Assembly (NCBI GenBank): GCA_018340375.1
Contig: JAFFJZ010000001.1
Span: 11,550,001 to 11,614,000, forward strand
DNA length: 64,000 bases
Direction: 5' to 3'
Source of the DNA: Gonatopus flavifemur
Lineage: Eukaryota > Arthropoda > Insecta > Hymenoptera > Dryinidae
Of the stretch, positions 296 to 63,217 are shown piece after piece. The notes under the pieces are model-generated. The model was not told the origin of the DNA. It made no database searches and saw only the letters and a list, made by a program, of their open reading frames with translations. The position numbers were made by a program, and so were the translations under genes. Numbering within the stretch: position 1 is the stretch's first letter; each line of letters opens with the position of its first letter.

Positions 296-601
296 CCCTT
301 ATGAAAAAATCCGATATCGGGATCTCATCGTTGAATCATCAGTTGTATTGATACTATCCGAAATCTATCACGTTGTTTCATGATCGTACAAGTCCGATAA
401 AAATACGATATCTACGATAATTATCCAATGTAAACCCGATATAGAGATATATCGGGAAATCATCGGCTAACCGATTGGTTTCATATCGGATAATTATCGT
501 AGACTCGTCTGATAATGAAACAACACGATAGATTTTGGATAGCATTAATGAAACTGGGGATTGAACAATGAAATCCCGACATCGGGTGTTTTTCATAAGG
601 G
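296..601. mobile_element. CCC-type MITE, 306 bp, TSD GT
   Basis: A near-complete inverted repeat begins CCCTTATGAAAAA and ends with its complement TTTTTCATAAGGG. It is flanked by GT (294-295) and GT (602-603). The arms run inward for over 80 bp around a loop with repeated GATATCGG-type words. It has no coding capacity. The superfamily assignment is unknown. Confidence 0.75.
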
Positions 602-766
602 GTGGATTTGAATTCTCGTTTCGTTTCTGTAAACGGTTGAAAACTTCAGCACCATTTAATTTTAATGAATTTTATAGTAAATATCATGAATTCATGATTG
701 GACTAGACTTGAATTATAAGTTTCAGAATTTTCATATTCATCTGATGTAAGAGATTTCAGACTATT

Positions 767-1489
767 CCCTAGTAGAAATTTTGATATGGAAAACATCAGG
801 TCCAGATCAGGCATGCCTGATTCCTGTTCAGGGCCTGACTCGAGTATTTGATAAGGCCCTGACAAAAATATAAAGTAGGGAGAAGACAAGGTACCGATCA
901 GGAAAACCAAACGTCTCTCAATCAGGATCTGATCAGGGTAGTGTTTGAATTCCAAATCAGGACCTGATCCGGGTGGTAGCGGAATTCCCAATCACGACCT
1001 CATCTAAGCTATATTCTAACATTCAATTTGATTTTCATGGAATTCACTTTTCATAAAATTTTTTGACACTCCCCCAACAGAAGAAATTCTACTGATGATC
1101 CAAATAGACCTCAGTTGAACATTTCAAAAAGACAGGTAAATTTCTAATGAGTCCTGTGACAATTCTGAATAATTTGATACATTCATCGTTCTGAATTGAT
1201 CAGGTCCTGAATCGGCTGTCTTGTCGGTTATCACATGATTGAAATACGGATGAGTCAAGGCAATCCTGATCAGGTTCTGATAGGAATATCATGTCTGAGT
1301 TACTGAAAGGGAAAATCTGACTGGGACCTGTCAATAACCTTGCATTACGTTGTTGTAAGGTCCCAAACAGGATGCCATGTCAGGATCTGATAAGCTAATC
1401 AAAAGTTTTCCTTAATTAGGAGTTCCCTATTGCAGCCTTACGAGAGCCATGCTTCTGATAGGGAAATCCCTGTCAAATTTCTACTAGGG
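767..1489. mobile_element. CCC-type word-array element, 723 bp, TSD TT
   Basis: The termini are CCCTAGTAGAAATTT and its complement AAATTTCTACTAGGG, with TT on both sides (765-766, 1490-1491). The interior is a dense, irregular array of the word ATCAGGACCTGATC and close variants in both orientations. No ORF of note. Apparently non-autonomous. Confidence 0.75.
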
Positions 1490-1652
1490 TTACTCCCACG
1501 TCAAAGAAAGATTTTGTGATCGTTTCGAGGAACCGAAAATTTGTTGTCTCCAAATTGAAAATTTTTTGGAGAAGAATGTTTCTCCGAACCCCGGGAAAAA
1601 TGTTGGTTCCGTGACTGTGTGTGTTGTGTGTGTGAATCAGTTTGCGATCGCG
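1490..1652. other. Spacer with GT microsatellite
   Basis: Non-coding, with a short TGTGTG tract near 1615-1635. Nothing else recognised. Confidence 0.5.
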
Positions 1653-1880
1653 TATAAAAATCTAGAAACTAGCGCATGAGCACCGATGACGTATCAAATC
1701 CAAAAAGTTTCACCGGTTTATTCCGTGGAACTCCTTGGAATAAGAATATGAACCTATGCACTTATCGCATTGCCGCATGAGATGAGCGGATTGGTTCATG
1801 CTTTTATTTCAAGAATGTCTTCTTGCGATTGATATGTGATCGGTGCTCATGCGCTAGATCCTAGATTTTTTTCTCCGTGT
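1653..1880. repeat. Inverted-repeat element, about 230 bp
   Basis: The left arm near 1655-1698 (CTAGCGCATGAGCACCGAT) is the reverse complement of the right arm near 1830-1875 (ATCGGTGCTCATGCGCTAG). The right end carries TTTTTTCTCCGTG, as in the CACGG elements at 6826 and 47896. The left terminus is degraded and no target duplication was resolved. Confidence 0.55.
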
Positions 1881-1889
1881 ATAATCTGA

Positions 1890-2613
1890 TCGTCATTAAA
1901 TTTTCACCATAGTTATATATGCAGTATTGATAGCATATATGTGGTTGAAATTCATACCACGTTTCACTTATGGCCACATGGTGATCCCATATGAGTTCCA
2001 TGTCAATCGATTAAGAATTTAGCAATTTACATTGTTCGACAACATTTTCACAGCATGCTTTCCCTGTGTTTGTGTAATCCGAATGCTATGGAACTCTGAG
2101 CATAGTCAATTCATGACGTGTTTATTGTATGATATAAGTTTCAGGCGAATCAGAATTAACGGCAGAAAAGGGTGAGCAATGAAGTTCCAAAGGAAATGTG
2201 AAAATTTTGTGAATGCCGCTATTATGCGAATATCTTCCGCTCCTATCATCCGATCCTTACGAAATTTTTACCACCCCTGCTTAAAGAATCTCATTGAACC
2301 GATTGATTCTCATTGAGAATCAAGTTTGATGGGTTTAAATCGGTTTTCTGCATCGGAATCAACGAGAATCAATTGGTTCAATGAGATTCTTCAAGCAGGG
2401 ACAGTCATGTACAGTGTCAATAGTGGTTCGATATGAGTTTCAACTTCATTCTTACAGTACAACGGGAGATTGAAAGCAGATATCTTATCGAACATTGTGA
2501 TTTTGTCACCGTTCATATCTGTGTTTCTGGTTATCTGATTGCAATGAAATTTACATCACGTGTTGTTTACGATGCCATAGTGGTTCCATACGAGTTCCAT
2601 TTCAATTAGTTCA
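1890..2613. repeat. Degenerate word region, partly interrupted
   Basis: Recurring variants of GTTCCATATGG and CCACATGGT in both orientations spread over about 700 bp around the nested MITE at 2275-2400. Termini were not found and there is no coding region. Called only on word recurrence, so this is weak. Confidence 0.3.
2275..2400. mobile_element. CCC-type MITE, 126 bp, TSD AC
   Basis: The arms are CCCTGCTTAAAGAATCTCAT and its near-complement ending TTCAAGCAGGG, flanked by AC (2273-2274) and AC (2401-2402). The internal words ATTGATTCTCATTGAGAATC are self-complementary. Related degenerate copies sit near 26772-26850 and 41629-41705. Confidence 0.75.
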
Positions 2614-5130: not shown

Positions 5131-5458
5131 CCCAATCAGAAAAATCCGAAATATGCCAATGTTGACAACAGGTGCAGTACAGTGCCAGTATTGGGTCTCC
5201 AACACTTGGTGAACACGTACGAGATCAGTACTGGATACATAAAAATACAGTATTATGCCTGTACTGATAAACCAGTACTGAGAACTTAATACCGGCTAGG
5301 TACTAACCCAGTACTGGCCCTGCACTGATTGCGAATAATGGTATTAGTACTCAATCCCCAGTACTGAAAAGCGTTATCATTCCAGACAAATGCCAGTACC
5401 CTGCCAGTCTTGGCTAGTACTGGTGCAGTACTGCGCCTGTTGTAAATTTCTGGTTGGG
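5131..5458. mobile_element. CCC-type word-array element, 328 bp, copy 1, TSD TT
   Basis: Ends CCCAATCAGAAAAATCC and TTTCTGGTTGGG, flanked by TT (5129-5130, 5459-5460). The interior repeats CCAGTACTGG and half-words (CAGTAC, GTACTG) in both strands. It is nearly the same as 5872-6199 and has the same length. Confidence 0.8.
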
Positions 5459-5871: not shown

Positions 5872-6199
5872 CCCAATCAGAAAAATCCGAATAATGCCAA
5901 TGTTGACAACAGGTGCAGTACAGTGCCAGTATTGGGTATTCAACACTTGGTCAACACATACGGAATCAGTATTGGATACATAGAAATACAGTACTATGCC
6001 TGTACTGATAAACCAGTACTAAGAACTCAAAACCGGCCAGATATCGGTCCAGTGCAGGGACTGCACTGATTGCGAATAATGGTATCAGTGCTCAATCCCC
6101 AGTATAGAAAAGAGTTATCATCCCAGACAAATGCCAGTACCCTGCCAGTCTTAGCCAGTACTGGTGCAGTATTGTGTCTGTTGAAAATTTCTGGTTGGG
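5872..6199. mobile_element. CCC-type word-array element, 328 bp, copy 2
   Basis: Second copy of the CCAGTACTGG-word element, in the same orientation as 5131-5458, with the same ends. The flanking dinucleotides are GA and CA, so the duplication is lost or was imprecise. Differences from copy 1 are scattered substitutions. Confidence 0.78.
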
Positions 6200-6825
6200 C
6201 AATATTCGTTTATTCTAACTTATTCCTCAGGCACATGCACAAAAAATGAACCAGTCTGTATCGAATACAAAAAACTCGCAAAGTTCTTACTTGCATATTG
6301 CCAGATATAGTCTCACGTTCGCTCAGAATTTCATGGAGCGGTCTAGTTCCCATTGTGTTACGAAGCGTTGTTTGAGCTAAAAGCCGTGTACTATGATGCG
6401 CATTTTCCACATTGGCTACTGAAATAGTAGCATTGTTCACGCGATAATATACCACTGCATCAACTGAGACGGTTACACTATCTTTCGTTAGTACCTATAA
6501 CATTTGAAGATTGGAAATAAACAATTTGATCAATTTATTTTTCATTCATTTGTTTCGAAAGGGTAATTCAAAACGTCGGGACACTATTGTACCCACGGAC
6601 TCATCTCTAAATTTGAAATAGATTTTTCTTTCACAAATTTTAATCTGAGCCTGTTTTGATCATTAGATGCCATTTACCATAAATTCAACTGAAAATTCTT
6701 AAATTTATGGAATCTTCATCATTTTAATTCATCATGTCATAATTAAAATGTGAATTACTTCACAACATTTATGTGAATTTCTTCATAAATATTTCATTAG
6801 TTTGAGTTATTGATATGTTTACACA
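6200..6825. other. Spacer without recognised feature
   Basis: About 625 bp, AT-rich. I see no gene, terminus pair or tandem repeat. Confidence 0.5.
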
Positions 6826-7027
6826 CACGAAAAACAGTAATTAGCTTTGAGATGGACAGTCATTATTTCAGCTCCTGTAGCTAAATTTTAGCTGCTGCAG
6901 CAAAATTTCTAGCTCCATCAGCTAAATTTCAGCTAATGTTGCCGAGAAATTAGCTGTCCTGAGGGTACTGAATCTTTAGCTCTGACAGCTAAAGTTTAAC
7001 TGATACAGCTAAAGATTTCTTTCCGTG
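6826..7027. mobile_element. CACGG-type word-array MITE, 202 bp, TSD CA
   Basis: Starts CACGAAAAACAG and ends CTTTCCGTG, flanked by CA on both sides (6824-6825, 7028-7029). The interior is an array of the self-complementary word TAGCTGCTGCAGCTAAA and variants. Same family as 47896-49561. Confidence 0.6.
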
Positions 7028-11117: not shown

Positions 11118-11909
11118 CCCACACAGCACAGAATGTCTCAATGACATATCCAAAATATTATATTTGCAATATGCAATATTCTGGCGGACATCTCAAGAAT
11201 ATTGTCAGAATGTCTCCAGAATGTTTTATGTCATCATCTTTGTGACATTCTGGAGACATTGCTGAGAAATATTGATGAGATCATCTCAGGGATATTTTAT
11301 ACAGGGAAAAATTTCATGATTACGTGTGTCAACAATGGTACAAAAATGGTGCTTTTGGTAGAAAAAAATTTTTCTTTAGAGTGAATTCCTCTGCAAATGT
11401 TATCCAGAATATGATTTGGACGGCTTTGTGAGAGAAATACACATTGAAAGTCGATTATTAGGGAAGGTCTCACAGTAAGGATCGAACCCCAGTTCTCCGA
11501 GTCATAGACAAAGCCTCTCTATCACCTGAGCTATTTACTGAGATGACTTCAACGCCCTCAAAGTGCCAGTCTTGGTCATCATAGTGATGTGGTCCTGATA
11601 AATTCATTTTCATGAATGATCGGGTCTGATGAATGAAAATTATTACTGCCACATAAAATATTGCTACTGAAATATGCTCAGAATATTTCATTTGCGACAA
11701 ACATGAGATATCCCTCATCATAGATTCCCAGAACATTGCAGAATATCATATATGCAATATTTCAATTGCAAGATTCTCATAATATTTGTAATGAATTATT
11801 CTGTCCCCGATATCTATGGAATATCGTTGAAATATTCAACATAGAATGTTTCGAGTGAGATATTTGTGATATTCTGAGAATATTACTGAGACCTTGTGTG
11901 CTATGTGGG
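11118..11909. mobile_element. CCC-type word-array element, 792 bp, TSD TA
   Basis: Ends CCCACACAGCACAGAATG and TGTGTGCTATGTGGG, flanked by TA (11116-11117, 11910-11911). Both terminal thirds are arrays of GAATATTCTGAGACATTCTG-type words in both orientations. The middle (about 11300-11700) is different sequence and includes a tRNA-like stretch, probably a nested insertion. Confidence 0.75.
11468..11544 (-). tRNA. tRNA-like sequence (pseudogene or SINE head)
   Basis: On the minus strand there is an A-box-like TAGCTCAGGTGATAGAG followed about 30 nt later by a B-box GGTTCGATCC. The spacing is tRNA-like and the ends pair (TCTCAGTAA with TTACTGTGAGA). The D stem is short, the terminal stem is 2-3 nt too long and the anticodon stem is poor, so this is not a convincing functional tRNA. 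A tRNA-derived SINE head or decayed tRNA is more likely. Confidence 0.4.
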
Positions 11910-19951: not shown

Positions 19952-21190
19952 GTTACAAGATGTCGAAGAAAACGTGTGCTGTAGCAACTTGTTCGAGGAA
20001 GGTGGGGAGATTTTTCAAATTCCCTAATCCATCTGTCCATTTTGAACGTGTAGTCAAATGGATCTTCCTCCCAACAAGTTGCAGTTCAGAACTATGTGTG
20101 CAACCCATTTCGAGGAGAAATACCTTTTGGCACATCGATTGAGACAGTCTGCGATACCAACATTAAACTTACCAGGTATGTTCCCCATTTTCTTATGTCT
20201 TTATATTTTTACTAGAATGTGAATTCATAAATGAATAATAATAAATTGGTAATGAAATCATTATTTATTTGTCATGTGTTCAATAAATTGCATAAATTTA
20301 TTGAATTATGACTTGAAAAACAAATAGTCATAACACATGCAATTTTGTAATCCAATTCTTCCATTTCTTTCAGCACCCATTGACGCCTCTGTATATGTGG
20401 ATAGGTACAAGGAGGAATGTGCAGGAAGACGTAAAAGGATAGACGGAATGCAGTCAACTACTTCGCAGACCATTCATCCTACGATAGGAGTACAGCGAAT
20501 CCAGCCAGCAGACCATTCACTGCCATCGGCATCAACAGCGATGGACATGGGAGACACCATGGAGATTAGCATCGCAGAAGGAAATGTTGAGGACACTGCG
20601 ACTCCAACTGGAGAATCATCAAGACCCGAAGGGAACATGAAGCTCCGACGAACGTTCAGAATAGATCATGATAGATCAGACTGAAGCTCCGTTGGAGCTC
20701 AAGTTTAGATTCGGAAACGTTCGACGAAGGTCCGATGAACGTTGAAATGTCCGCTTGAAAATAGCTTGAATGAAGGTTCATAGAACGTTTATTAAAGATT
20801 CTACGAAGATTCATTCAACCTTCAGTTTTTTATGTTTCAGACGGAATTACAATTATAGTTAGAAATGCCCCAATCTTTCATTTTTTCGTGGAAAAATATA
20901 CTTTGAAAAAAACTTTGATCGAAAAATTGCAACTCGAACGAACCTTTAGCAAACGTTCGATGAACGTTTTATAAACGTTCATTCAAACTATTTTCAAGTG
21001 GACATTTCAACGTTCATCGGACCTTCGTCGAACGTTTACGAATCTAAACTTGAGCTCCAACAGAGCTTCAGTCTGATCTATCATGATCTATTCTGAACAT
21101 TTGTCGGAGCTTCATGTTCCCTTCGGGGAGGAATCAGCCATCCAGGACAAAAGGATGAAGCAGTACATTTAGAACCTCAATCATTCAACG
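19952..21190 (+). pseudogene. THAP-domain exons of a P-like transposase (broken)
   Basis: Exon 2 (19952-20175) follows a TTTGATTTCCAG acceptor and ends before a GTATGT donor. Exon 3 starts at 20374 after a TTTCTTTCAG acceptor and ends at 21190 before GTAAGT. The phases match across the intron. A possible noncoding exon 1 ends at 19829 (GCAG then GTTAGT). The protein starts MSKKTCAVATCSRKVG, followed by FFKFPNPSVHFERVVKW. In another frame come MCATHFEEKYLLAHRL and SAIPTLNLP, together forming a C2CH THAP zinc finger (C-x4-C, later C-x2-H). A 1-nt-class frameshift near 20060-20075 separates the halves. Exon 3 is split by the element at 20625-21127; removing it with one GA copy leaves exon 3 in frame through to the donor. 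No catalytic domain follows. Confidence 0.72.
20625..21127. mobile_element. CCC-type word-array element, 503 bp, TSD GA
   Basis: TIRs CCCGAAGGGAACATGAAGCT and complement, with arms of over 140 bp. Flanked by GA (20623-20624, 21128-21129). It carries the palindromic words GAACGTTC and GATCATGATAGATC. It is inserted in THAP exon 3, and excising it in silico with one GA restores the frame, which fixes the 2-bp duplication. Confidence 0.88.
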
Positions 21191-26338: not shown

Positions 26339-27440
26339 CCCAATAACATACAATTGTTAAAGACATCTAAAAGATGTCTGAGAAAAGACATCTTTTCGAC
26401 ATTTCTAAAAGACAACTTATGGACTTCTTTTAGATGTCTCACTGAAGACATTTCTAAGAAGTCTCTTTAAGTTATCTTAAAGGTGTCTAATAGATTTTAT
26501 TTCGAAGATGTCTTTGAAGATTTAATAAAAGGCATCTTTTAGATATCTTGGAAATCAAAATCACAATATTAATAATATAATAATATACCGATAATGATTA
26601 TAGGCCTGAATTGAAAAAAAAGACAATTTTGATATAAAATCAAATAATTGACGACTTTCATTATAAAAATTTTTATAATCTCATAGTGTGCATTGTTTCT
26701 ACTGACCAAATTGAATCACGTCGGACCACAATTGATGTTGCACGGATTGAAGATTTAATTCCGTTTAAGTACTCCTGCTTAAAGAATCTTATTGAACCAA
26801 TAGAATCTGCATCGGAATCAGTGGGTTCAATGAGATATTTTGAACAGGCGTACAAGAAAATTCTACGGTCATAGTTTGTAATACCAAAAAAACACGAAGG
26901 TCCAAAGAATATTCAGTGAAGGTGCATTGAACGTCCGGACATTGGATGGTCCGTACATTCCTTGAACATAAATGTACGTATAATGAACGTGAATTTCACC
27001 TAAAAGATCTGTGTCTTGGGGAAGTTACAGGGATGAAATATATCATTCGCAAGACATTTTCAGATCATCTGAAAGTGTGCTTCAACCGTGGTTAATAAAA
27101 CCTATCCATTCCTATTGAATGTGATAAATTCACATTAAAATTCGAATTCTGCACGTTTAATAGGAATAAATGGGTTTTTTATCAATCAGGGAAGAGGTCC
27201 TAAGAAAAATTTGCATCATATCTAAAGCTCGTCTTGAAGAAGTCTAAAAGATATCTTCTAGATATCTAGTAAGAGTTCTAAAAGATGTCTTACTCAAGAC
27301 ATGTTTTGGATGTCTGACACTGTCGCATAAGACATCTTTCAGACTTCTTTTAGATATCTTTTAGAACACTTTGTAAGACATCTTGCGAAGTCGCAAGATA
27401 TCTTTTAGATTTTGAAAAGATATCTTTTTGTCTATGTGGG
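26339..27440. mobile_element. CCC-type word-array element, 1102 bp, TSD AT
   Basis: Ends CCCAATAACATAC and TTTTTGTCTATGTGGG, flanked by AT (26337-26338, 27441-27442). The opposite arm of the host foldback reads CATAAGGTGTCGCC where this arm is interrupted as CATAAGAT / ATGTCGCC. The word is AAAGATATCTTTTAGATGTC, dense in both terminal parts. The middle is ordinary sequence with a degenerate relative of the MITE at 2275. A second, interrupted copy is at 40974-44273. Confidence 0.82.
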
Positions 27441-27679: not shown

Positions 27680-28043
27680 CCCAAGCAGACACGAAGATGT
27701 CTTTTAGAATTTTAAAAGATATCTTTCAAAAGTACAAGGAGTCTTGAAGAATTTTCTGAAAGATATCTTTTCGCATTCGAAAAGATGTCTTATGGAACAT
27801 GAATAGATTTCTGAAAGATGTCTCGGAGACTTCTCTAAGATATCTTCAAGGAGAAATTAATAAATCTAGAAGAGTTCTTCAAGATTTCTTAAAGATGTCT
27901 TGCAAAATTGATAAAAATGTCTTAGAAGAAGCTTGAATTTATTCACGAAAAAAAATTCTGAGTTCTTCTTTTTCCTCCCCTTCTTGAAGATCTCTCAGTT
28001 GAGTATTCTTTTAGATATCTTCAAGAACTGCATGCTATGTGGG
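27680..28043. mobile_element. CCC-type word-array element, 364 bp, TSD AA
   Basis: Ends CCCAAGCAGACACGAAGATG and CATGCTATGTGGG, flanked by AA (27678-27679, 28044-28045). It is filled with AAGATGTCTTTTAGA / AAGATATCTT words, the same vocabulary as 26339-27440, but it is a separate insertion. Confidence 0.78.
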
Positions 28044-31289: not shown

Positions 31290-31670
31290 CCCGTACAGCA
31301 CAACCACCGATTCTCCACCCAGGACTCCGGTGGACTGGAGGTGGAGAATCAGTGAAGAAATGAGAGCTGTGGAAATAAGAGAGAAATAAGGGAGAGTCTC
31401 CGTTGAGGCAACGGAGAGGTGGCGTGGATTTGCCCGCCCCCTTTATTTTCAATGAAATTTATGTTAATGGATTCACTCATTGAAATTTGGTTGTGTAAAT
31501 CGACAGATATGAATTTTATTGAAAATAAAGGGGGCGGACAAATCCACGTCGCCTCTCCGTTGCCTCAACGGAAACTCTCCCTTATTTCCACGGCTCTCAT
31601 TTCTCCACTGATTCTCCACCTTCAGTTCACCGAAGTCCTGGGTGGAGAATCAATGGTTGTGCTGTACGGG
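31290..31670. mobile_element. CCC-type foldback, 381 bp, arms about 165 bp
   Basis: Ends CCCGTACAGCACAACCA and TGGTTGTGCTGTACGGG. Long arms include GATTCTCCACCCAGGACT and CAACGGAGAGG. The CCC....AGCACA start matches other CCC elements (11118, 45302). Flanks GT and AA do not match. Confidence 0.7.
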
Positions 31671-32355: not shown

Positions 32356-34518
32356 CCCTAGCGGATTCAAAATGACCGAAATAAATTGGTCAGTTTTCGG
32401 TCATTTTTGGGTTCGGTCATAAACAGGTTTTTCACTGGAAGGTGACTGAATCGTAACCATATTATTGAGCATCCAAAATGGACCTCAAATTGAGTAGCTA
32501 ATTGGTCAGGGTGAAGTCATTCAAATGCACAAACCTGAAAATGACCAGAGAAACCAAACACGTATGGAGAACAATGATGGACGAATATTGGTCGTGCGGA
32601 GCCCAAATCACCGGAAATTGACTAAAATACATCGTCTGACGGTCAATGAGATTTGGGATGACTTTGGTGATTTTGAGGTCGATTACCGAAAATGACCGGA
32701 AATCTCTGATGGAAATTCGAAGTGAGAATCTCCACATAATTCGATCATTTTTCGGTAGTTATCAAGTCTGATCAAAATTGAATCATCAAAAGGTGAAAAA
32801 GCGGACTTATCGAGGTTCTCCGCCAGTAGATGACCATCGTGACCCCTTTTCATTGGATCCTTGGTCAAGTGTTTTGACCGAGAGCTAACCTCAAACAACA
32901 CCCAGTATGTAAGTCCTACGTGGGTCATAGTCGGGTCAATCGAGCACATGGACTTGTGAATGACCGAAAAAAGAGTACAACGCATGCACAACGCTGACGG
33001 ACGAATGTTGGCCGTGCGAAGCCCCAATCACCGGAAATTGCCTAAAATACATCGTCTGACGGTCCAATGAGATTTGGGATGACCTTGGTGATTTTGAGGT
33101 CGATTACCATAAATGACCGTATATCTCGCATGCAAATTCGAAGTAAGAATCTTTACTTAATTCGGTCATTTTTCGGTGATTCTTGGGTCTGATCAAAATT
33201 GGGTCATCAAAAGGTGAAGAAGCAAACATATCGAGGTCTTCCACCAATAGATAATTATATTATGACCCTGTTTCACAGGGTGCTTAGCCAGGTGTTTCGA
33301 CCAAAAACTAGACTCAAACAGGACACAGCATGTAAGGTCAAATGCTGGGCGTGCAAAGCCCAAATGACCGGAAATTAACTGACATCTATCGCACGACGAT
33401 CCAATCAGATTTGGGATGATTGTGGTAATTTTAAGGTCACTTACTCAAGATTACCGGAGATCTTTGATGCAAATTCAAAGTGTCACCAGGACTAGCACTT
33501 TGTATGCGATGATTTATTTTAGGTTGGTTTGTTGAAAATGACTGGAATATGAACCAATCGAATTCTCCATCGGATGGGGCGTTTCCAGTCATTTCGATGA
33601 AATGGATCGAATCTCGACCACATGAATTCACGGGTAATTCTGGGTAATTTTAGTTTGAAAAATCACCAAAATTTGACCAGTACTAGCGCTTTGTACGCAA
33701 TGGTTCTTTCACGGTTGGTTTGTTGAGGATAACTGGAATATGACCGGATCGAATCCTCCATCGACTGGTGCTTTCCCAGTCATTTCGATGAAACCAACCG
33801 AAATTTGACGACATAAATTCAGGGCATATCTTCAGGGGCAGTTGTAACCAAAAAATTCGTTCTACAAGAAAACGGTTAGTTCTAAAACGTGAAGAGGATT
33901 CATGTATGCTGCTCTCTAAATCTGAAAGAGTGAAAAATCACGTGTTTCACTCCACTAAGTCTCAAAAGTGAGCCAGTCCGCTTCGAGTGAACCCTCACTC
34001 TTTTAGAGTGAAAAATTGACTCTAGAATTTGAGTGGCTGTGAGTTTCTAACCTTGAACCTTAGAATATCATTCTAAAAGAGTAGAAATTTCACTCAAAAT
34101 TTCGACAGGCTCACTTTTGGCTGGCTGAAGAGTGGAACCTCACTCTAAAAATTTTAGAGAGTGTAAAATAATGATTCTACGGATCGTTTTTACCTTTTGG
34201 AACCAATCGTTTCCTTGTAAAACTAAATTGTTAGTTACAACTGCCCTCTTAGATTATGCCCTGCATGAATTCACGGGTCATTTTGGCCACGTCTAGTCTG
34301 GAAACTCACCGCAATATGACCAGTAACAGCGTTCCTTGTGCAATGGTCTATTTCTGGTTGATTCGTGGGAAATGATCAAAATATGACCTAATGAAATCCA
34401 TGCTCATGTTTCGCAATTCCAAAGAAAATGGGTCATTTTTTGTCCGGTTTTCAGTCGAAAAAATTCACAAACTGACGTCATATTTCGGTCATCTTCGGTC
34501 TACTTGAATCCGCTAGGG
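32356..34518. mobile_element. CCC-type word-array element, 2163 bp
   Basis: Ends CCCTAGCGGATTCAAAATGA and TTGAATCCGCTAGGG. Filled with TGACCGAAAATGACC / GGTCATTTTCGG words in both orientations over 1.7 kb. Flanks are TA and AT, so no exact duplication. Terminus and words resemble 41732-43708. Carries the hAT MITE at 33820-34263. Confidence 0.75.
33820..34263. mobile_element. hAT MITE, 444 bp, TSD CATRAATT
   Basis: Ends CAGGGCATATC and GATTATGCCCTG, with inner GGGCAGTTGTAAC in both arms. Flanked by CATAAATT (33812-33819) and CATGAATT (34264-34271), 7 of 8 identical. The centre is an array of AGAGTGAAAATTTCACTCT words. Confidence 0.75.
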
Positions 34519-40973: not shown

Positions 40974-43900
40974 AAGATGTCTAATAAATTTTATTTCAAA
41001 GATGTCTTTGAAGATTTTATAAGAGACATCTTTCAGATATCTTGAAAATCAAAATTACAATATTAATAATATAATGATATACCGATAATGATTATAGGCC
41101 TGAATTGAAAAAAATATCAATTTTGATATGAAATCAAATAATTGGCGACTTTCATTAAGAAACCTTATGAAATCTTGCGAGTCTTGCATCTTTCATAGGC
41201 TCCATAAGTTTTTATCAGGTTTTGCTTGGTATTTTCAGCAGGAGTGTTGCAATCAGCTTCTTCCATCATGTATTGAACTTGTTTACTGATTACCGTATCC
41301 CAAACGCACATTTGCTTAAATTTGGATTAATACTTTGTTAATTATAAACACACTTAGAAGTTTGAGTATGTTTACATACTTTCGAAGGAAAACATTTCTT
41401 TGTCTTTTCTGGTTTTCTGCCAAGACTTGTTTCTATCAATGAAACTTCTTCAAAAAAAAATTTCAATTTGAAATAATAAATTTGTAGAGAATGTTTTTAT
41501 ACTCTTCGATTAAACTTGAAACAAAATAAACGAATCTCATAGTGTGCATTGTTTCTACTGACCAAATTGGATCACGTCGGACCACAATTGATGTTGCACG
41601 GATTGAAAACTTAATTCGTTCGAGTACTTCTGCTTGAAGAATTTTATTGAACCAATAGAATCTGCATCGGAATCAGTGGGTTCAATGAGATATTTTGAAC
41701 AGGCGTACAAGAAAATTCTACGGTCATAGTTCCCTAGCGATTTGGTTTTTACCGAAATTTTTGGTAAGAAATTGGTAATTTTGTGGTGTTGTAATATTGT
41801 GGTTAGAAATTGGTTATATTGTGGTCAAATCGTTGTACCGTTTGTGTCTTTTTTGTACCACATAATTACCAACAAATTACTACACGATCGGTATTTTTAT
41901 GGGAGAAGTTTTGGACAAATTTTGGTAAAGAATGACGGATTCAACAGGATGTACAATTCGGTTCCTTTTTGGAAAAAATATGCCTGACATTATCGCAAAT
42001 GGAAGGAACAAAATTGGTAAGTTTTTGGATAATTTCGAGTTCATCACCATGAAACCAGCGAATCTTCAGTGCTACTGATTGGTAACAATGTGGTTCCTTT
42101 TTGGAAAAACATCTTGAAAATACCGCTGATGGGAGGAACCAAATTGGTCAGTTTTTGGTTACTTTCCGGTTCATAACCATGGGATTACCGAATTTGCATT
42201 GGTACTCATTGGTAACAATTCGGTGCTTTCTTGGAAAGAGTATACCTGGAATTACTGCGGATGGAAGGAACAAAATTGGTCAGTTTTTGGATAATTTCCG
42301 GTTCACAACTATAGAATCGCCAAAACTTCAGTGCCACTGATTGGGGAAAAGTTGGTTTCTTTTCGGAAAAAAATATGCCTGAAATCACCGCAGATAAAAG
42401 CACCCAAATTGGTCAGTTTTTTGATAATTTCCGGTTCACAACCATAGAATTACCAAAACTTGAGTGCGACTGATTGGCAACAATTTGGTTCCATTTTGGA
42501 AAAAAAAGCCTGAAATTACCGCAGATGGAAGGAACCAAATTGGTCAGTTGTTGGATAATACCCGGTTCACAACCATAGAATTACCAAAATTTCAGTGTCA
42601 CTGATTGGGGAAAATTTGGTTCCTTTTCGGAAAAAATATGTCTGAAATTACCCCAGATGGAAGAAACCAAATTGGGCAGTTTTTGGTTCATTTCCAGTTC
42701 ATCACCATAAAATTACCGAATCTTCTGTGCTACTCATTGGTAACAATTTGGTTCCTTTTTGGAAAGAGTATACCTTGAATGACCGTGAATGAAAGGAACA
42801 TAATTGGTGAGTTTTTGGAAAATTTCCGGTTCACAACCATAGAATCACCAAAACTACAGTGCTACTGATGAGTAAAACTTTGGTTCCTTTTTGGAAAACA
42901 GCTTTGAAATACCTCAGATAGGAGGAACGAAATTGGTCAATTTTTGGTTATTTTCCGGTTCATAACCATGAAATTACAGAGTTTTCATTGGTAGTCATTG
43001 GTAACAATTCGGTTCCTCTTTGGAAAGAGTATACCTGGAATTACCGCAGATGAGAGGAACATAATTGGTAAGTTTTTGGAAAATTTCCGGTTCACAAACA
43101 TAGAATCACCAAAGCTACAGTGCTACTAATTTGTAAAAATTTGGTTCCTCCTATTCGCGGTAATTTCAGGCATTTTTTTCAAAAAGGAACCAAATTGTAA
43201 CCAATGCCGGATTCTCAACATTCGGTAAATCTTCGGTTTTTAACCACGAAACAACCAAGAAATGACCAAGAAGACCATTACATTCCTGTAATCTGGTAAA
43301 AAAAGTGATTTGGTTCCAAGAAGGTACCGAATCGTGACCGATGAGTCGCACTGAATATCCGGTAATTTTATGGTTTTAAACCGGAAATTTACTAAATATT
43401 GACCAATTTGGTTCCACCTATTCGCGGTAGTCTTAGGCCTTTTTTTCCAAAACGGGACCAAATTGCAACCAATGCAGGATTCTCAACATTCAGTAAATTT
43501 TCGGTTCTTAACCACGAAGCAACCGAGAAATGACCAGAAACACCATTTCTGTGATCTGGTAAACAAATGGTTTTGTTCCCAAAAGATACCGAATCGTCAC
43601 TGATGATTAGCACTGAAGATGCGGTTGTTGGTTATTTTGTGGTAAGAAAAAGTCACAAACGTACCGAAATTTTTTGGTAACTTTTTGGTAACCTCAAAAT
43701 CGCTACGGTTTGTAATTCCAAAAAAACACGAAGGTCCAAAGAATATTCAGTGGAGGTGCATTGAACGTCCGGACATTACATGGTCCGAACATTCCTTGAA
43801 CATAAATGTACGTATAATGAACGTGAATTTCACCTAAAAGATCTGTGTCTTGGGGAAGTTACAGGGATGGAATATATCATTCGCGAGACATTTTCAGATC

Positions 43901-44780: not shown

Positions 44781-46038
44781 ATGTCGAATTACGTACCAGA
44801 AAAAGTCGTCTTGCGGGGAAGTTTAATAACCTTCTTTCATTTGAAGAAAACGGCTGCTGAAAGTTATCGATTGTTGATTGAAGCTTATGGTGAACATGTT
44901 ATAACCTAAAAAACTCGTAAACGATGGTTTCAACGCTTTAAAACTGGTGACTCTGATGTAGAAGAAAAGGAGCGTCCAGGTCAGCCACAAAAGTTTGAAG
45001 ATGCAGATTCGCAAGCTTTATTGGATGAAGACTAGTCAAACGTTGAAGCAATTGGCAAATGCATTAAATGTCGCCCAATCCACCGTTTCTGAACGGCTAC
45101 ATGCATTGGAAAAGGTCCAGAAGGTAGGGAAATGGGTTCCATATCAATTGAAAGACAGAGACATTGAAAGACGAAAAACCATTTGCGAAATTCTGCTTGC
45201 CAAGCAGAAAAGAAAAAGTTTTTTGCATCGGGTCATCACCGGTGATGAAAAGTGGATCTACTTTGATAACCCAAAGCGACAAAAATCATGGGTAGACCCA
45301 GCCTAAGTAGCACAAGAACTTCTCAAATATGCTATGGTGACTCTATGAATGTGAAAGGGTGTGCGAATGAGACTATTTTGGATAAATTCGTTGAGATATT
45401 CTATGGAGGTGCATAGCACATAATTATTCGAAACAGTCTCATTTGGGGGTTCTATACGCATGTTCGTAGGATTTTCCAAACACGCTCTTAGCATTTATAA
45501 CCTCTTCTGCTACTTGGGAGGCTAGCCTTCAATATCACAACCAGTGCGCAATGTACATGGAAAGAAGGCTTTTCCTTGGTATTTGGTGGGATAATAGGGG
45601 AGCTGTGTATTACGAACTGCTGCAACCTGGTGGATCGATCCCTGGCGATCGTTACCGACAGCAATTAATAAGTTGAACAGAGCTTTGCAAGAAAAACGAC
45701 CAGAATACGCACAAAGACACGACAAAGTCGTTTTTCAACATGATAATGTTCGGTCGCATGTTGCGAAAAGTGTGAAAAACTATTTGAAGAACATGAGGTG
45801 GGATGTCCTACCCCATCCGCCGTATTCACCGGACTTGGCCCCTTCGGACTATCACCTATTTCGATCGATGCAGCACGGACTTCCAGAACAACATTTCCAT
45901 TCTCACGAAGAAGTGAAAATTTGGCTCGATGAATGGTTGGTCTCAAAAAGTGAACAATTCTTTTGGCAAGGAATCTATGCTTCGCCAGAAAGATGGGAGA
46001 AAGTCATAGCAAACGATGGCCAATACTTTGATTATCAA
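44781..46038 (+). pseudogene. Mariner transposase pseudogene, mauritiana-type
   Basis: Begins MSNYVPEKVVLRGSL with KKTAAESYRLLIEAYGEHV, then an in-frame TAA near 44906, a TAG near 45031 and a shift into the frame carrying TLKQLANALNVAQSTVSERL, KVGKWVPYQLKDRDIERR and TGDEKWIYFDNPKRQKSWVD. The 217-bp CCC element interrupts it there. After it come a TAG, a frameshift near 45580, and FQHDNVRSHVAKSV plus HPPYSPDLAPSDYHLF, ending KVIANDGQYFD without the usual stop. Catalytic Asp codons survive but the gene is dead. Confidence 0.92.
45302..45518. mobile_element. CCC-type MITE, 217 bp, TSD AG
   Basis: Ends CCTAAGTAGCACAAGA and TCTTCTGCTACTTGGG, flanked by AG (45300-45301, 45519-45520). Removing it with one AG restores the mariner reading around WVDPG, which fixes both borders. 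The centre has GAGACTATTTTGG / CGAAACAGTCTCATTTGG inverted words. Confidence 0.88.
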
Positions 46039-46613: not shown

Positions 46614-46633
46614 CTGGTGGTAACACCACTGGT

Positions 46634-47867
46634 GATGGAGAAAGTGTTTTGAAAAAGGTAGAAATCGATTTTAAGGATGAGAGAATAATGTGTGCATTAT
46701 ATAAGAATCAAACCGCAATAGAAGTAGAGGGTCAAGAAGGAGAAGCACAAATTAGAAGAGGGGTGAGACAAGGATGCTCACTACCACCATTGATTTTCAA
46801 TCTATATACCGAAGGAGCGATGAACGAAGTGAAGGAGCAAGTGCAATTGAAATTAAAGATTCAGGGAGAAAATGTAAGCATGTTGAGATTTGCGGATGAC
46901 ATAGCTATATTAGCTACGAGCGGTGCTGAGTTAGAAAATATTCTCAACACTATGAAAACAATATTACTAGAAAAGTATTGTATGGATATAAATAAAGACA
47001 AAACAAAATTCATGATTTGTACCACAGCGAAAACATCAAGAAGAACCAAAATCAAAATAGATGCAGAGACAATTCAGCAAGTGAGAGAATTTAAATATCT
47101 AGGAAGCATAATTACAGAAAACGGTCAAAGCGAAAGAGATATAAGAGCAAGAATAGCACAAGGGAAACAGGCTTTCCATCAAAAGAGACAGTTACTATGC
47201 TCAAAGAATATTAGCTCAGCAGTGAGGGAAAAATTCTCGAAGAGTTACCCCAGTAAACATTTTTCCCCCTCAACATTTCAAACATTCATTATGTTCTCTG
47301 AATGCTAACAGAAAGTTCTCTAATGCGTCGATTTCGGAAATCTTTTTGATTCCTTCTTCGTGATGTCCGGAAGTTATCAGAATGTAATCCAAGTCAACTT
47401 CCTGATAACTTCCGATATCACGAAAAAGGCATCAAAAAGATTTCCGAAATCGACGCATTGGTGAACTTTCTATTAGCATTTAGAGAACATAATGAATTTT
47501 TGAAATGTTGAGGGGAAAATGTTTACTGGGACGTTTGGAGTACAGCATTATATAGTTGTGAAACTTGAACAATGGGAAAAATAGACCAACGAAGACTTGA
47601 AGCTTCTAAAATGTGGTCTTATAGAAGGATGCTTAGAATACAGTGGATAGAGAAAGTCTTTTGAAACATGTCGTTGAAAGAAGGATAGAAGTAATCTGAT
47701 AGGACACATATTAAGGCATGATAGTTTATCGAAAACAATATTGGGAGGAAAAATGAATGGTAAAACTCGCAAAGGTAGACCTAGATTAAGTTATATACAG
47801 CAAATTATACAAGATAAGGGTTGTCGTAAATATGTAGAAATTCAGCCTTTAGCGGATAATAGGTAGG
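46634..47867 (+). pseudogene. Reverse-transcriptase fragment (RTE-type)
   Basis: From KKVEIDFKDERIM onward it aligns with the RT of copy 1: RRGVRQGCSLPPLIFNL, the catalytic FADDIAIL, DKTKFMICTTAKTSRRTKI and FKYLGSIITENGQSERDIR. The open frame runs into the insertion at 47249. Past the insertion the sequence resumes at VWSTALYSCET with a TGA replacing the following Trp, further frameshifts and an internal deletion (the part matching VKNEEVLEQMNEE of copy 1 is missing). Endonuclease domain absent. Confidence 0.9.
47249..47530. mobile_element. CCC-type foldback, 282 bp, TSD AC
   Basis: Ends CCCAGTAAACATTTTTCCCC and GGGGAAAATGTTTACTGGG, arms over 110 bp, flanked by AC (47247-47248, 47531-47532). 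Its host codes KSYVWST uninterrupted in LINE copy 1, so the 2-bp duplication is certain. Confidence 0.92.
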
Positions 47868-47940
47868 GTTGGATCACTTCATGATGATGATGGTGCACGG
47901 AAAGAAAAAATTTGCTGACGCAGCAAATCGAGGTATTATA

Positions 47941-50363: not shown

Positions 50364-53260
50364 CCCTGGTTGAACGAACCGATTAATTCCGACCAAATCT
50401 GATTGAATGAATCGTACGCACTTTGGAGCATCAATATTTGGTGATTGAACTTCAATCAGAATTGGTCGGCTTGAATAGGAATCAATGGACGGGCTTCCTT
50501 GAATGGTATTGAATGAGGGATGTACAAGTGAAACAAGGGACACTCTTGCAGAGGGGAATGGGGAGGAATAGAGGAATCCGATTGAATTTGGTTTGAACAT
50601 ATTTATGTTTCTAGATTCAATAGGCATTTGACTTTTTCGATTTTCATATGAAATTCGATAGGATTCAATGATCATTTCACTGATCGTGATCAAATCAGAA
50701 TCAAATGATTGGTTGAATATAGAAAATCGGGGATTTTCGTGATTCAGAATCAAGAAGTAAATCAACGGATGGATGAATGAGAATGAATCAGCATTCGCCT
50801 AGTAATGTTGAGATGGAATAGATAATCAGATTCAATGGGAGAAAGCCCATTATAAGGGTAGAATGTTGTTAATGAGAGATGAATGAGATTGTTTCAGAAC
50901 ATTGTGCAGTCGATATCCTGATTCAATACAATTGGATTCAATGAGCATGCGGACGAATCAATCACTGTAATTATTTGAGAAACAATCGGTGCATGTACGG
51001 AATGAATGAATTGGAAGAATGGGGAACGTGGACATTGCAAGCGAATTGAATTCATTGAGTATTTTTCCAATTAAAAATATTTTACGTTTGGAATCAGATA
51101 CGTTAGGAGAATAGCTGATTGGATTCTATAGTAGGGAATGATTCATATGGCGATACAGGATGGGAAAAATTAATATACAAGGGACAGTATTCCGAACGAG
51201 TTGTAGACAGGGATCGCGCAATTGACCCAATCAAAGTCCATAGGGATTGAGCCGATTGGACACATCTGTAGGCATTCGGGTTTCCTCCGGGGATAGGCTC
51301 TATTTTTCAATCGGACTCGATCCGGGCATGACCGACTGGACTCTATAGTACCCAATGATGCATATTACGATTCTGAATCAAAATCACATTGAGACACTAA
51401 TATGCAAGTTACACTATTCCGAATGAGTTATAAACAGAAATCACACGATTGACCCAATCAGAATCAATCGAGGTCCAGCCGAAGTGAAACACCTGTAGGC
51501 GAATGGAATTTTATCGGAGATAGGGTCTACTCCTGAATCGGAATCAGTAGGTCGATGACCAAATGAATTCTATAGTATTCAATGATACATATGACGATTT
51601 GGAAACGAAATTACATTGAAACACTGATATGTAAGTTATACCATTCCCAATAATTTGGAAACAGGACTCACACAATAGCCCCAATCAGAGTCAATTGGGA
51701 CTCAGCCGATTCGGGACACTTGTAGGCGAACGGAACTTCATCAGAGATAAGCTCTATTAGGTAATTGGGTTCAATAGGATGATGACCGATTGGACTCTAT
51801 AGTATTGAATAATCCATATGACAATTCGGCATCGTAATCATCGTGGAAACACTGTCATGTAAGTCATACTATTCCGAATGAGTTGGAAACAGGGCTCGCA
51901 CGATAGACCCAATTAGAGTCAGTCACAGTGGAAAAGGAACAAAATGTTCAGAAATTTTTCTTCACCGATTTCAGATTCTTTACATCGTTTTTGATGTAAA
52001 GAGGAAGAGGAAAACATCCTTCGTCGTCTGCTTCACAGCTTAGTACTTGAAAGATTGAGTTATTCGTGATCGACCGGATTGAGTACGTGATATGTTACCT
52101 TCAGAATGTAGATACTATCTCATTGAATGAATCATCCACCCGATGTTCGTGGAATCTCGTTCGCAAAGGAAAATCCGAATAGAGGAAAAACCTATTCTAT
52201 TCGATTTGGAGGCTCTATGCTTTCCTATAGACTTTGTCATGATTTGATATTCAATCACGTCAAAAGAATCAGCCACTTTTTCATTGGAACGTGCTAATGA
52301 ATCGGCGGGACATCTAATGAATCCCATTGAGATGAAAATGTCGGTATCACTGAATGCTGAAACCGGACCAAAATTCATGTAACAGCGTTTATTCATCCTC
52401 GATGGGTTTATCCGTCATGCACGGATTCAGTACGTGACATCTCGAATATTTCCGACAGTACCTGCACAGTGTGCACGGTGCACGAAGCGGTTTTCAAATC
52501 AACTAAGATTTTCATTTTGGATCAATCCAATAAAAAGATAAAGTGAATCAAGCACCGCTTCGCGCACAGTGCACATTCTGCACGTACTGTCGAAAACACA
52601 TTTTACTGTCAAAACAACACAACAGATACAATGTCATTGCATAAATCCTCGAATGTATCATTCAATTCATCTCAGTCACATCGGAACGTTTGTAGCAGCT
52701 TGATCGTGAATTGCAATCCAAATCATCAACCAACTGATTGAATCCGATTGGGATACTCTATGCTGCCCCGTAAATTTGCTGATGGATTTTAATTCAATCC
52801 CGTCTAAATCAATCGGTCATTCGCTCATTGGAACTCTCCCTTGAATCGGCGAAACGCTGAATGAATTCCATTGAGATGGCGATGTCAATATCACTGCCCG
52901 TCCGATCCAAAACCGTGTAACAATCCGTATTCATCCTCATTGGCTCCATTCGTAATCGCATTGATTCAGTACGTGATATCTTACTATCAAAATGCAGATA
53001 CCATCTCATTGAAAAATCATCGAATATCTGAATCGTTCCCTGATTCAGTATCATCAAAGCTTAATGTTATCATGCAAATTGGAGCTCATTCAATCCAGTC
53101 ATTCATACCCGCTTCATTTCCTATTCAACAATAAGAAAGCCCATCCCAGTCATCTGATTAGATTCAATCGGCATTTCACTTGCACAATGTTCCGATTCAA
53201 TCCGATTGGTCGATTCAGCAAACGAATTTGGTCGGAATCAATTGTTTCTTTAACCCAGGG
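50364..53260. mobile_element. CCC-type word-array element, 2897 bp, TSD GT
   Basis: Ends CCCTGGTTGAACGAACCGAT and AAAGAAACAATTGATTCCGA-type complement finishing TAACCCAGGG; arms share TTCCGACCAAAT. Flanked by GT (50362-50363, 53261-53262). The sister mariner reads GAAGAGTTCCAAG without interruption (63354-63366). Entire interior is an array of GATTCAATCGGAATC / TTGGACTCTATAGT words. In 51130-51900 a block recurs about every 230-245 bp (CTATAGTATTCAATGATAC). Largest element of its type here; no coding capacity. Confidence 0.9.
52452..52592. repeat. Inverted repeat inside the 2.9 kb element
   Basis: CGACAGTACCTGCACAGTGT is the near-complement of the right end ATTCTGCACGTACTGTCG, with CGAAGCGGT in both arms. 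Likely a nested MITE of about 140 bp. No duplication resolved. Confidence 0.6.
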
Positions 53261-56691: not shown

Positions 56692-56884
56692 CTCACATAA
56701 CAATTCATGTCTTGCGATGTCTTTTAGATAAATTTAAGATGTCTTGCGCAACACATTTAGATGTCTTATAGATATCTTTTAGACCGAAGAAGAGTTTTAG
56801 ACATCTAAAAGACATCTAAATGTGTTGCGCAAGACATCTTAAATTTATCTAAAAGACATCGCAAGACATGAATTGTTATGTGGG
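56692..56884. mobile_element. CCC-type perfect hairpin, 193 bp, TSD TA
   Basis: Ends CTCACATAACAATTCATGTC and GACATGAATTGTTATGTGGG; arms of about 80 bp are nearly perfect. Flanked by TA (56690-56691, 56885-56886). Words AAGATGTCTTTTAGATAT as at 26339 and 27680. Nearly perfect arms suggest a young insertion. Confidence 0.82.
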
Positions 56885-57888: not shown

Positions 57889-58458
57889 CCCAAGCGTGTA
57901 TTGCCTATAATGGCAATGGGCCCCAGGCTGGGTCCATCCTCTTCAACCCAGTATTGGGGAATGACGATGGGGCCCATGTTGGCTCAATCTTGGCCCTGTT
58001 GTGCTTTCCCATACAATTATGGTTGGTAGAAAATGGAAATAATGAATCTTAGTGCAGGCACATTTGAACTTGGCCCCAATTTGGACCAGCGTTAGGCCAA
58101 GATTGTGGTGAATTTATATCCTGAGCACGTGCGTACAATCCTCAGCATATATGGATTTTGGTCCCACTTTGGCCCAGTCTTGGGCCCATATAGGCTGAAA
58201 TTCATGCCTGCTGGTGTAGAATTCGAAGCAATTTTCCAATTTCAAAAAAAAAAGGAAGGGGCAGTATTGATTGCCTAGTTTGGGTTCATGCTGGGCCCAT
58301 GATGTTACCAATCCTCGGGCAAAGCAATACAGCCAAGCTGGGAACGATTTTATCATCTCAGGGTTGGCCTCATTTGTCTGCCCAGCTTGGCCCCACGTTA
58401 GGCAGCATGGGCACCCACCCTGGGCGTAGATTGGGCCCACCGTTAATACACACTTGGG
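57889..58458. mobile_element. CCC-type word-array element, 570 bp, TSD AA
   Basis: Ends CCCAAGCGTGTATT and AATACACACTTGGG, flanked by AA (57887-57888, 58459-58460). Filled with TTGGGCCCAAGCTTGGCCCC-type words, much more GC-rich than its surroundings. Same family as bases 1-26. Confidence 0.8.
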
Positions 58459-58460
58459 AA

Positions 58461-60302: not shown

Positions 60303-60521
60303 ATGAGTTTGAAGGTCATCTTTATTTCCCTCTTGCTCTTTATATTCTGTTTTTTTCTCACCGCTGGCTTCTCCGATCTCATCTTCGACCCTCAGCTCAC
60401 GAACAGAATACATATGCAAGATGTCATACAAAAGAGGTACTACCTAGTAAAGGATACGTTCAATGAAACTTTTTTTCTCAAGTTCTTCCCTCCCACACAG
60501 CTATTTTTACATCATAGTTGA
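60303..60521 (+). CDS. Short ORF with signal-peptide-like start (uncertain)
   Basis: A 72-codon frame beginning MSLKVIFISLLLFIFCFFL and continuing TAGFSDLIFDPQLTNR, with an NxT site (FNETFF). The N-terminus has the form of a secretory signal peptide (one basic residue, then about 14 hydrophobic residues). An upstream Met at 60246 would add 19 residues and bury the signal, so I prefer 60303. A possible AATAAA lies about 80 bp downstream (near 60604). There is no homology I recognise and no sign of codon bias. It could be a chance ORF or an exon of a small secreted peptide gene. Confidence 0.25.
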   Translation: MSLKVIFISLLLFIFCFFLTAGFSDLIFDPQLTNRIHMQDVIQKRYYLVKDTFNETFFLKFFPPTQLFLHHS

Positions 60522-62164
60522 CTTTGTGAATTTTAATATTTAGTTCCTCTTGATAAATTCGTTCAAAACGTGCAACGGAATTCACATCTTCTATTATAAT
60601 CGAAATAAATTCTCATTTGGTACATGATTTTTTATAATAAAGTGGTTATTAATGGATCGTTTTGTTATTTAAAATCAATCGAGTCAAAGTAACAAATTTT
60701 TCATCATCTTAATTATATAATATATAATAATATTACGAAATTTGTGAAAGAATTCAAAAGAAAAATAATTTTGTTCTGAAATAGAAATACAATGAGCATG
60801 GAATTTTATTTAATCGAATAGTGGAAAGATGAGTCCCATGGAATGACGTTGAAGAAATTAAATATTCCTCTCTAAAATACGAAAGGATATGGATTTATAC
60901 AACGCACTTATGCATGCGCTCATCGATCGCTCGACCGAAGCTATTCGGCCAATAGGATACACTGAGAAAAGTGTCCGGGATTGATCACCATTCATTCTGG
61001 CTCTCATGACGATTCTAGAATAGGGGTTGAGTGATAGCATCGCATTCTAGTGAGCATTTTATCACGTGAACTTATCGTCTCCATGGAAACCTCAATGGTT
61101 TATCGCACTTTATACGATGTTGAGTCGTATGGGTTACAAATTTACAATATCTGTCACCCACTTATTACTCCTTCTGGTGATCAGTAACTTATATATGAAC
61201 AACCCACATGGTTTGTTCATTCCATCTAGGATACGTCCACGTGGTTTTATCATCACGTGCACAAAGGTGATTCATATCAAGTTCCACTGAAATTACATGG
61301 GAGCCTTGTTTCAATGGATTGAAAATGAATTGAATATTTCCTTTATAGATTCCGCAAAATTCAAACTTGAAAAATTATATACCGATGTGGAAAAATTGTC
61401 AAAATTATATGTAATTTCTGCATGATTGAATAAAAAATTTGATATAAACTATTTTATTGAGGTATGTCATATACGTATTATTCATGGTTTATATATGAAC
61501 CATTCAATTCCTAAATGATTTGTCACGATCCCACGTATTTTCTACTCCCTTTGGCTAATTATCTCAGTCAATTCAACCTAGAGGAAAATTTAGATTTCAA
61601 ATTGAGAAGCGTGGGATTGTATTTCCCCCCACATTAGGTGGTAACTACTTCTGCAAACAAAAAATCAGTCTGAAGGTTAATTGAATGGGGAGTGTTCGAT
61701 GACTGTGCGTATCTTATTGTACCGCAAGGGTTGATGTCCTTCTCCTGAGGACCTGTAGCTATTTTTAATTGAAAGAGTTTTGCCATGATACACAAATTCA
61801 CTAATTAATCGCATACGCAACTTCTGCCCACATGAAAGTTTGCCTTGTCCTTGCAAAATTCCCTTGTTTTTTCCCCTTATTTCTTCCTTGAAACATGGGA
61901 AAGGAACACGGAAATTTGGTAACTTTGTGAAAATGAACAGGGAAAGCTTTTCTACGGGTGGTTGTCAATTCGTAAACTTATGAACATTCAAAAAAAAAGT
62001 ATCGTTTTTTTTTATTCATATCTCGGAAGTGGCTGGACAGAGAACAAAACTAAAATTGGCATATCGCCCTCTCTTAATGGGTACTGGAAGACCAAAAATT
62101 ATGGAGAAAATCGGAGATGCAGAAGCTAAATGGTGTTCGATTTGGCGTGGAATGCCCTATATAC
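60522..62164. other. Spacer without recognised gene
   Basis: About 1.6 kb of AT-rich sequence. Short frames (for example 61066-61290) have no motif. Nothing supportable. Confidence 0.45.
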
Positions 62165-62343
62165 TATTGCGTCCAAAAAGTGAGGTGACATTTGAATTCA
62201 AACTTTACGCGCAAATGTATTTGAGGTTAGTAAGACTGTCTTTAATATCAGTGCCAAGGGTCACATCAGAATATTGATTAGTGTTTGGAATACGCTTCGT
62301 TTTGTACGCTGCTGAAAGTGGATTTTTCGATTTTTATACTGTC

Positions 62344-63217
62344 TCCTGTTGGACCAACTTGGTACCAGCTGGTGCCAGTTACAGACCATGATGGTTGGCC
62401 CAACAACCAATATGGGACCAATTTGGTTCCGACCGTTGTCAAATTGGTTCAAGCTAGTGCCAGTTATAAACCATGATGGTTGATCCAACAACCAATATGC
62501 GACCATCTTGGTTGCCACTGGTGCTAGTTACAGGCCATGTCGGCTGACTCAACAACCAATACAGGATCAACGTAGTTCCAGCTAGACTGGCCCGATTCCC
62601 ATTGTACCGAATCGAACTTGATTCATTCCAAGAAGCACCAATATCAAAGTAATTTTGAAAACCCAGCATGATGCACGTTTGTTTATACCAAGAATAATTA
62701 AAGAACGTTATTAAAAAAATATCAACAAATATAAGTGTATTGTTAATGCAAACAACCTGACAAACTGATAACCGAATCGTAAAATCTGTCTAATTGCCAA
62801 ATATAAAGAAACGATGCCTTTCAAATTAATCACAAATTAAAGAAAAATCTCGGAATGCCAGTGAGACAAAACTGTGACCCAATTTGATCAGAATGTCAAA
62901 ATTCTGGATGAATCGTACAGAAGTTACTGTTCTACTGGAGTTTCTAAGATTCATTTATCACTATCTGAGGCCGTACCGAACATGGTCTGCTCCAGGTTCA
63001 TACTAGGACTGGATAGAACCATGCAGGGTAGTACCGACCTCTAGGTTGACCCATATTAGGTAGTACCAGCGTGGCTAGGACCAATCTGATCCCACGTAGG
63101 TTGATCCTACGCGGCATGGTCCCACCTGACATAGTTCGACCGTGTAACCAAATTCCTACTGGTCCTACCCAGCATGGTCGAACCTAGCTGAAACCCAGCT
63201 GGATCTTTTCAACAGGG
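62344..63217. mobile_element. CCC-type word-array element, 874 bp, TSD TC
   Basis: Ends TCCTGTTGGACCAAC and CTTTTCAACAGGG, flanked by TC (62342-62343, 63218-63219). The sister mariner reads through the site (ATAATGTCAACATTTG at about 50217). Filled with TTGGTACCAGCTGGTGCCAG, AGTTACAAACCATGATGGTTG and TAGGTTGGTCC words in both orientations. Confidence 0.85.

Follow-up and report, generated by a model that had tools for sequence, protein, structure and literature searches.

What kind of mobile element leaves behind short segments that begin with CCC, end with GGG and lie between two copies of a dinucleotide of no fixed sequence? The question is raised by a 64,000-nucleotide stretch of the genome of the hymenopteran Gonatopus flavifemur (C1:11550001-11614000; assembly of 636 Mb in 402 contigs), hereafter the window. 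Our analysis shows that these segments are a genuine set of elements, abundant, diverse and well defined, and that their kind is already known. They are very probably non-autonomous elements, similar to miniature inverted-repeat transposable elements (MITEs), of TRC (Transposon Related to CACTA), the animal branch of CACTA/EnSpm (CMC), present here in unusual number and variety. The assignment to TRC is based on the ends, the duplications and the literature.

Eighteen CCC...GGG elements, from 126 bp to 2.9 kb in size, were delimited in the window. Exact CCC/GGG is present at 32 of their 36 ends, with a one-base change at the other four, and the same dinucleotide stands on both flanks in 15 of the 18, with nine different kinds represented (GT, TT, AC, TT, TA, GA, AT, AA, TT, AG, AC, GT, TA, AA, and TC). 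A sequence-only reading of the window had counted at least 17 such elements, 13 of them with matched dinucleotides, and had described 2-bp duplications of free composition; both statements are borne out, the latter also by empty sites for five elements. The elements are short, have no TRC coding sequence detected in them and fall into many families with differing interiors. As the same reading had it, the termini differ by family, several families having the box CCCANNYAGCACA in common. One further candidate, at ~38816-38931, was discarded, as its right end is not GGG and it has no duplication. The delimited elements are as follows.

e1, 296..601: ends CCCTTATGAAAA; duplication GT
e2, 767..1489: ends CCCTAGTAGAAATTT; duplication TT
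e3, 2275..2400: ends CCCTGCTTAAAGAATC; duplication AC; relatives in L069 and L071
e4, 5131..5458: ends CCCAATCAGAAAAATC / CCCAACCAGAAATTT; duplication TT
e5, 5872..6199: e4 family; flanks GA/CA, unmatched
e6, 11118..11909: ends CCCACACAGCACA / CCCACATAGCACA; duplication TA; relative in L053
e7, 20625..21127: ends CCCGAAGGGAACATGAAG; duplication GA
e7b, 26339..27440: ends CCCAATAACATAC / CCCACATAGACAA; duplication AT; empty site 28116-28226 in an inverted paralogue
e8, 27680..28043: ends CCCAAGCAGACACG / CCCACATAGCATG; duplication AA
x17, 31290..31670: CCCGTACAGCACA on both ends; flanks GT/AA, unmatched
x16, 32356..34518: ends CCCTAGCGGATTCAA; flanks TA/AT, unmatched
e9, 41732..43708: ends CCCTAGCGATTT / CCGTAGCGATTT; duplication TT; empty site 26817-26934
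e10, 45302..45518: ends CCTAAGTAGCACA / CCCAAGTAGCAGA; duplication AG; within a mariner relic; relatives in L069 and L047
e11, 47249..47530: ends CCCAGTAAACATTTT; duplication AC; empty site 8450-8567 in a non-LTR copy
e12, 50364..53260: ends CCCTGGTTGAAC / CCCTGGGTTAAAG; duplication GT; empty site 63300-63417
e13, 56692..56884: ends CTCACATAACAATTC / CCCACATAACAATTC; duplication TA
e14, 57889..58458: ends CCCAAGCGTGTATT / CCCAAGTGTGTATT; duplication AA
e15, 62344..63217: ends TCCTGTTGGACC / CCCTGTTGAAAAG; duplication TC; empty site 50165-50279

Given one extra base at its right end, x16 has TAGTA flanks on both sides; this element may either depart from the 2-bp rule or have a decayed end.

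Five empty sites, together with the mariner relic around e10, show that exactly two bases were duplicated. Joined flanks with one dinucleotide were aligned to other repeat copies in the window, and of the 19 candidates examined, five have an empty site: e7b (AT), e9 (TT), e11 (AC), e12 (GT), and e15 (TC). These alignments run through the junction with scores of 136-228, that of e9 showing 2 differences over 118 bases; the remaining 14 candidates gave no convincing empty paralogue in the window (scores of at most 51). Removal of e10 and one AG makes the mariner frame continuous over the junction, which a stop codon adjoins.

The ends are abundant throughout the genome. CCCANNYAGCACA has 18,302 matches (9187 + 9115) in 636 Mb, compared with 216 (110 + 106) for its reversed control. 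All 16 pairs of facing ends lying no more than 1.5 kb apart among the matches listed were inspected, and 13 carry a 2-bp duplication (GT, TA, TT, TT, TA, TA, AA, TC, TA, TT, TC, TT, and TC), L043 and L051 having identical flanks, so that one insertion is counted twice among the 13. The duplication length proposed from the window was thereby upheld in 13 of the genome pairs, the other three lacking a duplication. Related copies carry different duplications: AG at e10 corresponds to AC in L069 (94% identical) and AA in L047 (69%), and TA at e6 to TT in L053. The second copy of e7, at L073:305-807, is 99.4% identical and also has GA, in different surroundings.

Matching flanks had partly guided the choice of the 18 elements, and tests blind to the duplication were therefore added. 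Under a strict rule in the window (CCC pairs, terminal inverted repeats (TIRs) of at least 12/14, pairing not extending outward), a 2-bp repeat flanks 7 of 19 CCC pairs vs. 178 of 2516 pairs for the other 63 triplets, among which ACG (2/4), GAG (5/14), and CAC (5/17) are also high. Thirteen more CCC pairs, two with a 2-bp match, were excluded because their pairing extends outward. With a looser rule, CCC gave 12/47, and the GCG share was higher (5/16). The loosest rule, which allows one-base variants, gave 31/249 vs. 17 to 26 when the flanks are read 1 to 6 bases further out, a weak signal that is diluted by internal repeats. Some seeming CCC pairs sit within other elements, for example 53731-54695 in an element with an 8-bp duplication. 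That element (53725-54701) has long TIRs and the 8-bp repeat ATTCTTCG on each side, and we take it to be hAT-like.

Outside the window, 198 kb were sampled as 20 stretches, each starting 200 bp ahead of a forward CCCANNYAGCACA match; this sample overlaps the genome pairs by one element, since L047 lies in L065 too. All CCC pairs in the sample gave a 2-bp duplication in 22/79. After removal of the motif-selected ends and two tandem-repeat-rich loci, the share was 15/44 for CCC vs. 88/1099 for 20 control triplets picked by the analyst (P 8.6e-7). CAC, the classic CACTA start, has the top share among the control triplets (14/64), as expected from the CACTA branch proper. CAC...GTG elements with matching flanking dinucleotides also occur in the window at 26036-29167 (CA), 47896-49561 (TG), and 29298-29393 (AA), in a listing pre-filtered for matched flanks, and perhaps belong to that branch.

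Internal repeats were assessed by counting 9-mer pairs in each of the 18 elements and in 100 shuffles. Direct repeats exceed all 100 shuffles in 8 of the 18 and inverted repeats in 14, the inverted excess coming partly from long TIRs, and some background stretches being high too. In e9, for example, there are 681 direct and 228 inverted pairs vs. 26.5 and 26.8 in shuffles. The short repeats, found in many of the longer elements, are family-specific; e3 and e10 are almost without them. Plant CACTA elements carry subterminal repeats in both orientations that serve as transposase binding sites, and the family-specific internal repeats are putative binding sites as well. Perfect palindromes were rejected as a common internal feature, 8-bp ones falling below shuffles in e9, e12, e15, and x16 and being mixed in the others.

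Which enzyme could move these elements? TRC transposase was not detected in the window by tblastn with nine TRC-like proteins (1e-4), in agreement with the earlier statement that no transposase is encoded inside, and ten chosen element open reading frames (ORFs) of at least 50 aa gave nothing above the curated Pfam cut-off. The sampled DNA contains a 601-residue TRC-like frame with one stop (L057:3903-5705; C1:380725-382527), whose protein has an exact TRC box A and CxxC. Its Pfam matches are all sub-threshold (DUF1258 5.6e-4, Transposase_21 0.0012, DUF4218 0.058); it has matches to at least 2270 database proteins, and those of its relatives that are named come mainly from insects, ants and beetles among them. 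Alignment with 20 of 120 listed relatives shows D115, D191, C210, C213, H416, H420, and E440 to be invariant, and at E 0.01 DUF4218 is found in 6 of these 21 proteins. The invariant residues are consistent with the DDE, C(2)C and H(3-4)H that PMC12730594 gives for CMC, and include a putative catalytic E. Genome-wide, at least 73 TRC-like matches were scored among 1113 candidates, many of them open frames of 600-800 codons. The C348 and C392 regions (L080+L078+L081 vs. L082+L079+L083) are ~98.4% identical over 16 kb, suggesting haplotigs or a segmental duplication, so that TRC gene counts may be inflated; near-identical gene pairs were dropped as a means of locating ends, since these two are alike across the 16 kb.

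Ends close to TRC genes were sought at several loci. At L057, a motif end lies 558 bp upstream of the first ORF and the right end is not recognizable, the upstream end not being independent, as the locus was selected for its motif. In the C111 copy, CCCACATAACACACATC stands 385 bp upstream of its frame, and 4.6 kb contain no right end; the C348/C392 copy has no motif end in the right orientation, and three further upstream stretches gave a single two-mismatch match, in one only. With a background of 0.126 motif ends per kb, proximity does not link genes and ends above chance, and that link therefore rests on published TRC elements rather than on this genome.

Several observations weigh against the TRC assignment. 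No copy carrying a TRC gene and both ends was found at the gene loci examined, where the longer copy encoding a DDE protein that the sequence-only reading had envisaged thus did not turn up; at L084, a motif end lies upstream of a TRC gene, and about one such match is expected by chance in the 7.5 kb examined. The L057 protein fits a loose box I only, not the strict published form, and Transposase_21 matches stay weak (4/21 aligned proteins at E 0.01). Flanks are unmatched in three of the 18 window elements (e5, x16, and x17), and three of the 16 genome pairs have no duplication: L041 (TT/AT), L049 (CA/TG), and L055 (CA/AA). Published ends, scored with a matrix built from window ends (positions 4-13), point both ways: the TRC end of Tribolium outscored all 838 other window CCC 13-mers used as background, in favour of TRC, but the Hydra end reached no higher than the top 5.3% and the Aedes 10-mer no higher than the top 6.0%. 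A transposase not yet described and not related to TRC, convergent in its CCC ends and 2-bp stagger, would fit the failure to find an autonomous copy with these ends and the chance-level proximity of genes. We regard it as unlikely, because the ends, the duplication length and the box agree with published TRC, and TRC-like genes are numerous in the genome.

Less probable still are non-autonomous ISL2EU or PIF/Harbinger (PHIS) elements. ISL2EU likewise duplicates 2 bp, but the target is AT and the start usually GG, and Harbinger duplicates TWA (PMC4482050), whereas here AT accounts for 1 of 15 duplications and the ends are CCC; the mismatch of ISL2EU termini suspected from the window is thus corroborated. 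That CCC and GGG pair merely by chance where DNA is rich in repeats might be suggested by the many window CCC pairs that lie inside other repeats without duplications, and by the weakness of the loosest test. Against it stand the empty sites, the 18,302 vs. 216 ends, the 13/16 genome pairs and the 15/44 vs. 88/1099 comparison, and we give it almost no credence.

For a TRC origin, a transposase encoded elsewhere in the genome would bind the ends in trans and cut the element out; insertion at a break with a two-base stagger, followed by repair, would leave a 2-bp duplication of any target sequence. The genomic TRC-like genes may well mobilize the window elements. Should a single TRC transposase, or a small number of them, act on the whole set, the enzyme might recognize a minimal end together with internal repeats that can be swapped. 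In this doubtful though conceivable reading, the more than 18,000 copies of one end motif reflect a TRC-dependent burst that split into many families; these retain no more than CCC and a loose AGCACA box, and many of the longer ones have short repeats of their own in both orientations. Were it true, new families could arise out of unrelated DNA. The TRC assignment gives a large MITE population its place in a branch that is known but seldom named, and offers a practical diagnostic for insect genome annotation (CCC...GGG, often CCCANNYAGCACA, with any two target bases duplicated); with families so many and so varied, this genome would be well suited to asking which features of an end a TRC transposase requires.

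Other repeats and genes were observed in the window:

4505-4966: mariner transposase remains
15989-16948 (-): mariner transposase remains
22593-23673: mariner transposase remains
45598-46143: mariner transposase remains, the match falling below the Pfam cut-off
48010-48858 (-): mariner transposase remains
8109-10951 (-): non-LTR retrotransposon remains, containing the e11 empty site
46556-47305: non-LTR retrotransposon remains
~19457-25872: element delimited by eye around a THAP-like frame, ends CCAGGGTACC, 6-7 bp duplication; presumably P-element-like
~6230-7270 and 29960-32230 (-): resemble exons of a stomatin-type gene (by eye)

The THAP-like gene (~19960-20170) was rejected as a partner transposase because its own element has CCAGGGTACC ends and a 6-7 bp duplication. 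Searches for relatives in sequence collections gave 13 matches to an 18-mer of e4/e5 in genome_contigs, 5 and 13 matches to two other patterns in viral_contigs, and none to a 20-mer pattern in the collections searched. A blastn comparison of all 18 elements with the loci fetched up to that point found nothing at 1e-3, and the matches were taken as chance.

Comparison with known systems supports the poor fit to Tc1/mariner, PIF/Harbinger, piggyBac, hAT, and P that had been noted from the window. Tc1/mariner duplicates TA, seen in 2 of 15 cases here, and piggyBac duplicates TTAA, seen at none of the 15 flank pairs, 4-bp matches not being raised at CCC ends. The plant-type CACTA core is likewise not found, the window ends being CCC. 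Closer are the CMC-NA MITEs of Glypta fumiferanae ichnovirus and CACTA elements of the ant Camponotus floridanus, for which 2-bp duplications are reported (PMC6004678); they are non-autonomous and CACTA-type like the window set, but their ends are CAC...GTG, not CCC...GGG. Hydra Spongebob / EnSpm-4N1_HM, a 5.8-kb element compared here by its end alone, is described as having the end CCCAGCCAACATTGAC, which the e11 start CCCAGTAAACATT resembles, and a 2-bp duplication (PMC4298943). The earlier view that CACTA/EnSpm termini do not match is overturned by this family and by the TRC branch, for which DeMarco et al. (2006, PMC1636069) describe CCC starts and 2-bp direct repeats in SmTRC1 and in the TRC elements of Tribolium castaneum and Aedes aegypti, with empty sites for SmTRC1. 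The TIRs given there are CCCTAGTAGCACCGAATATTTGTAAAA for Tribolium and CCCAGTCAAC for Aedes, and the Tribolium end CCCTAGTAGCAC... is similar to the box of the window elements. The window elements differ from these TRC elements in being short, non-coding and of many families with different interiors; they share with them CCC ends, 2-bp duplications with empty sites and a TRC-like transposase in the same genome.

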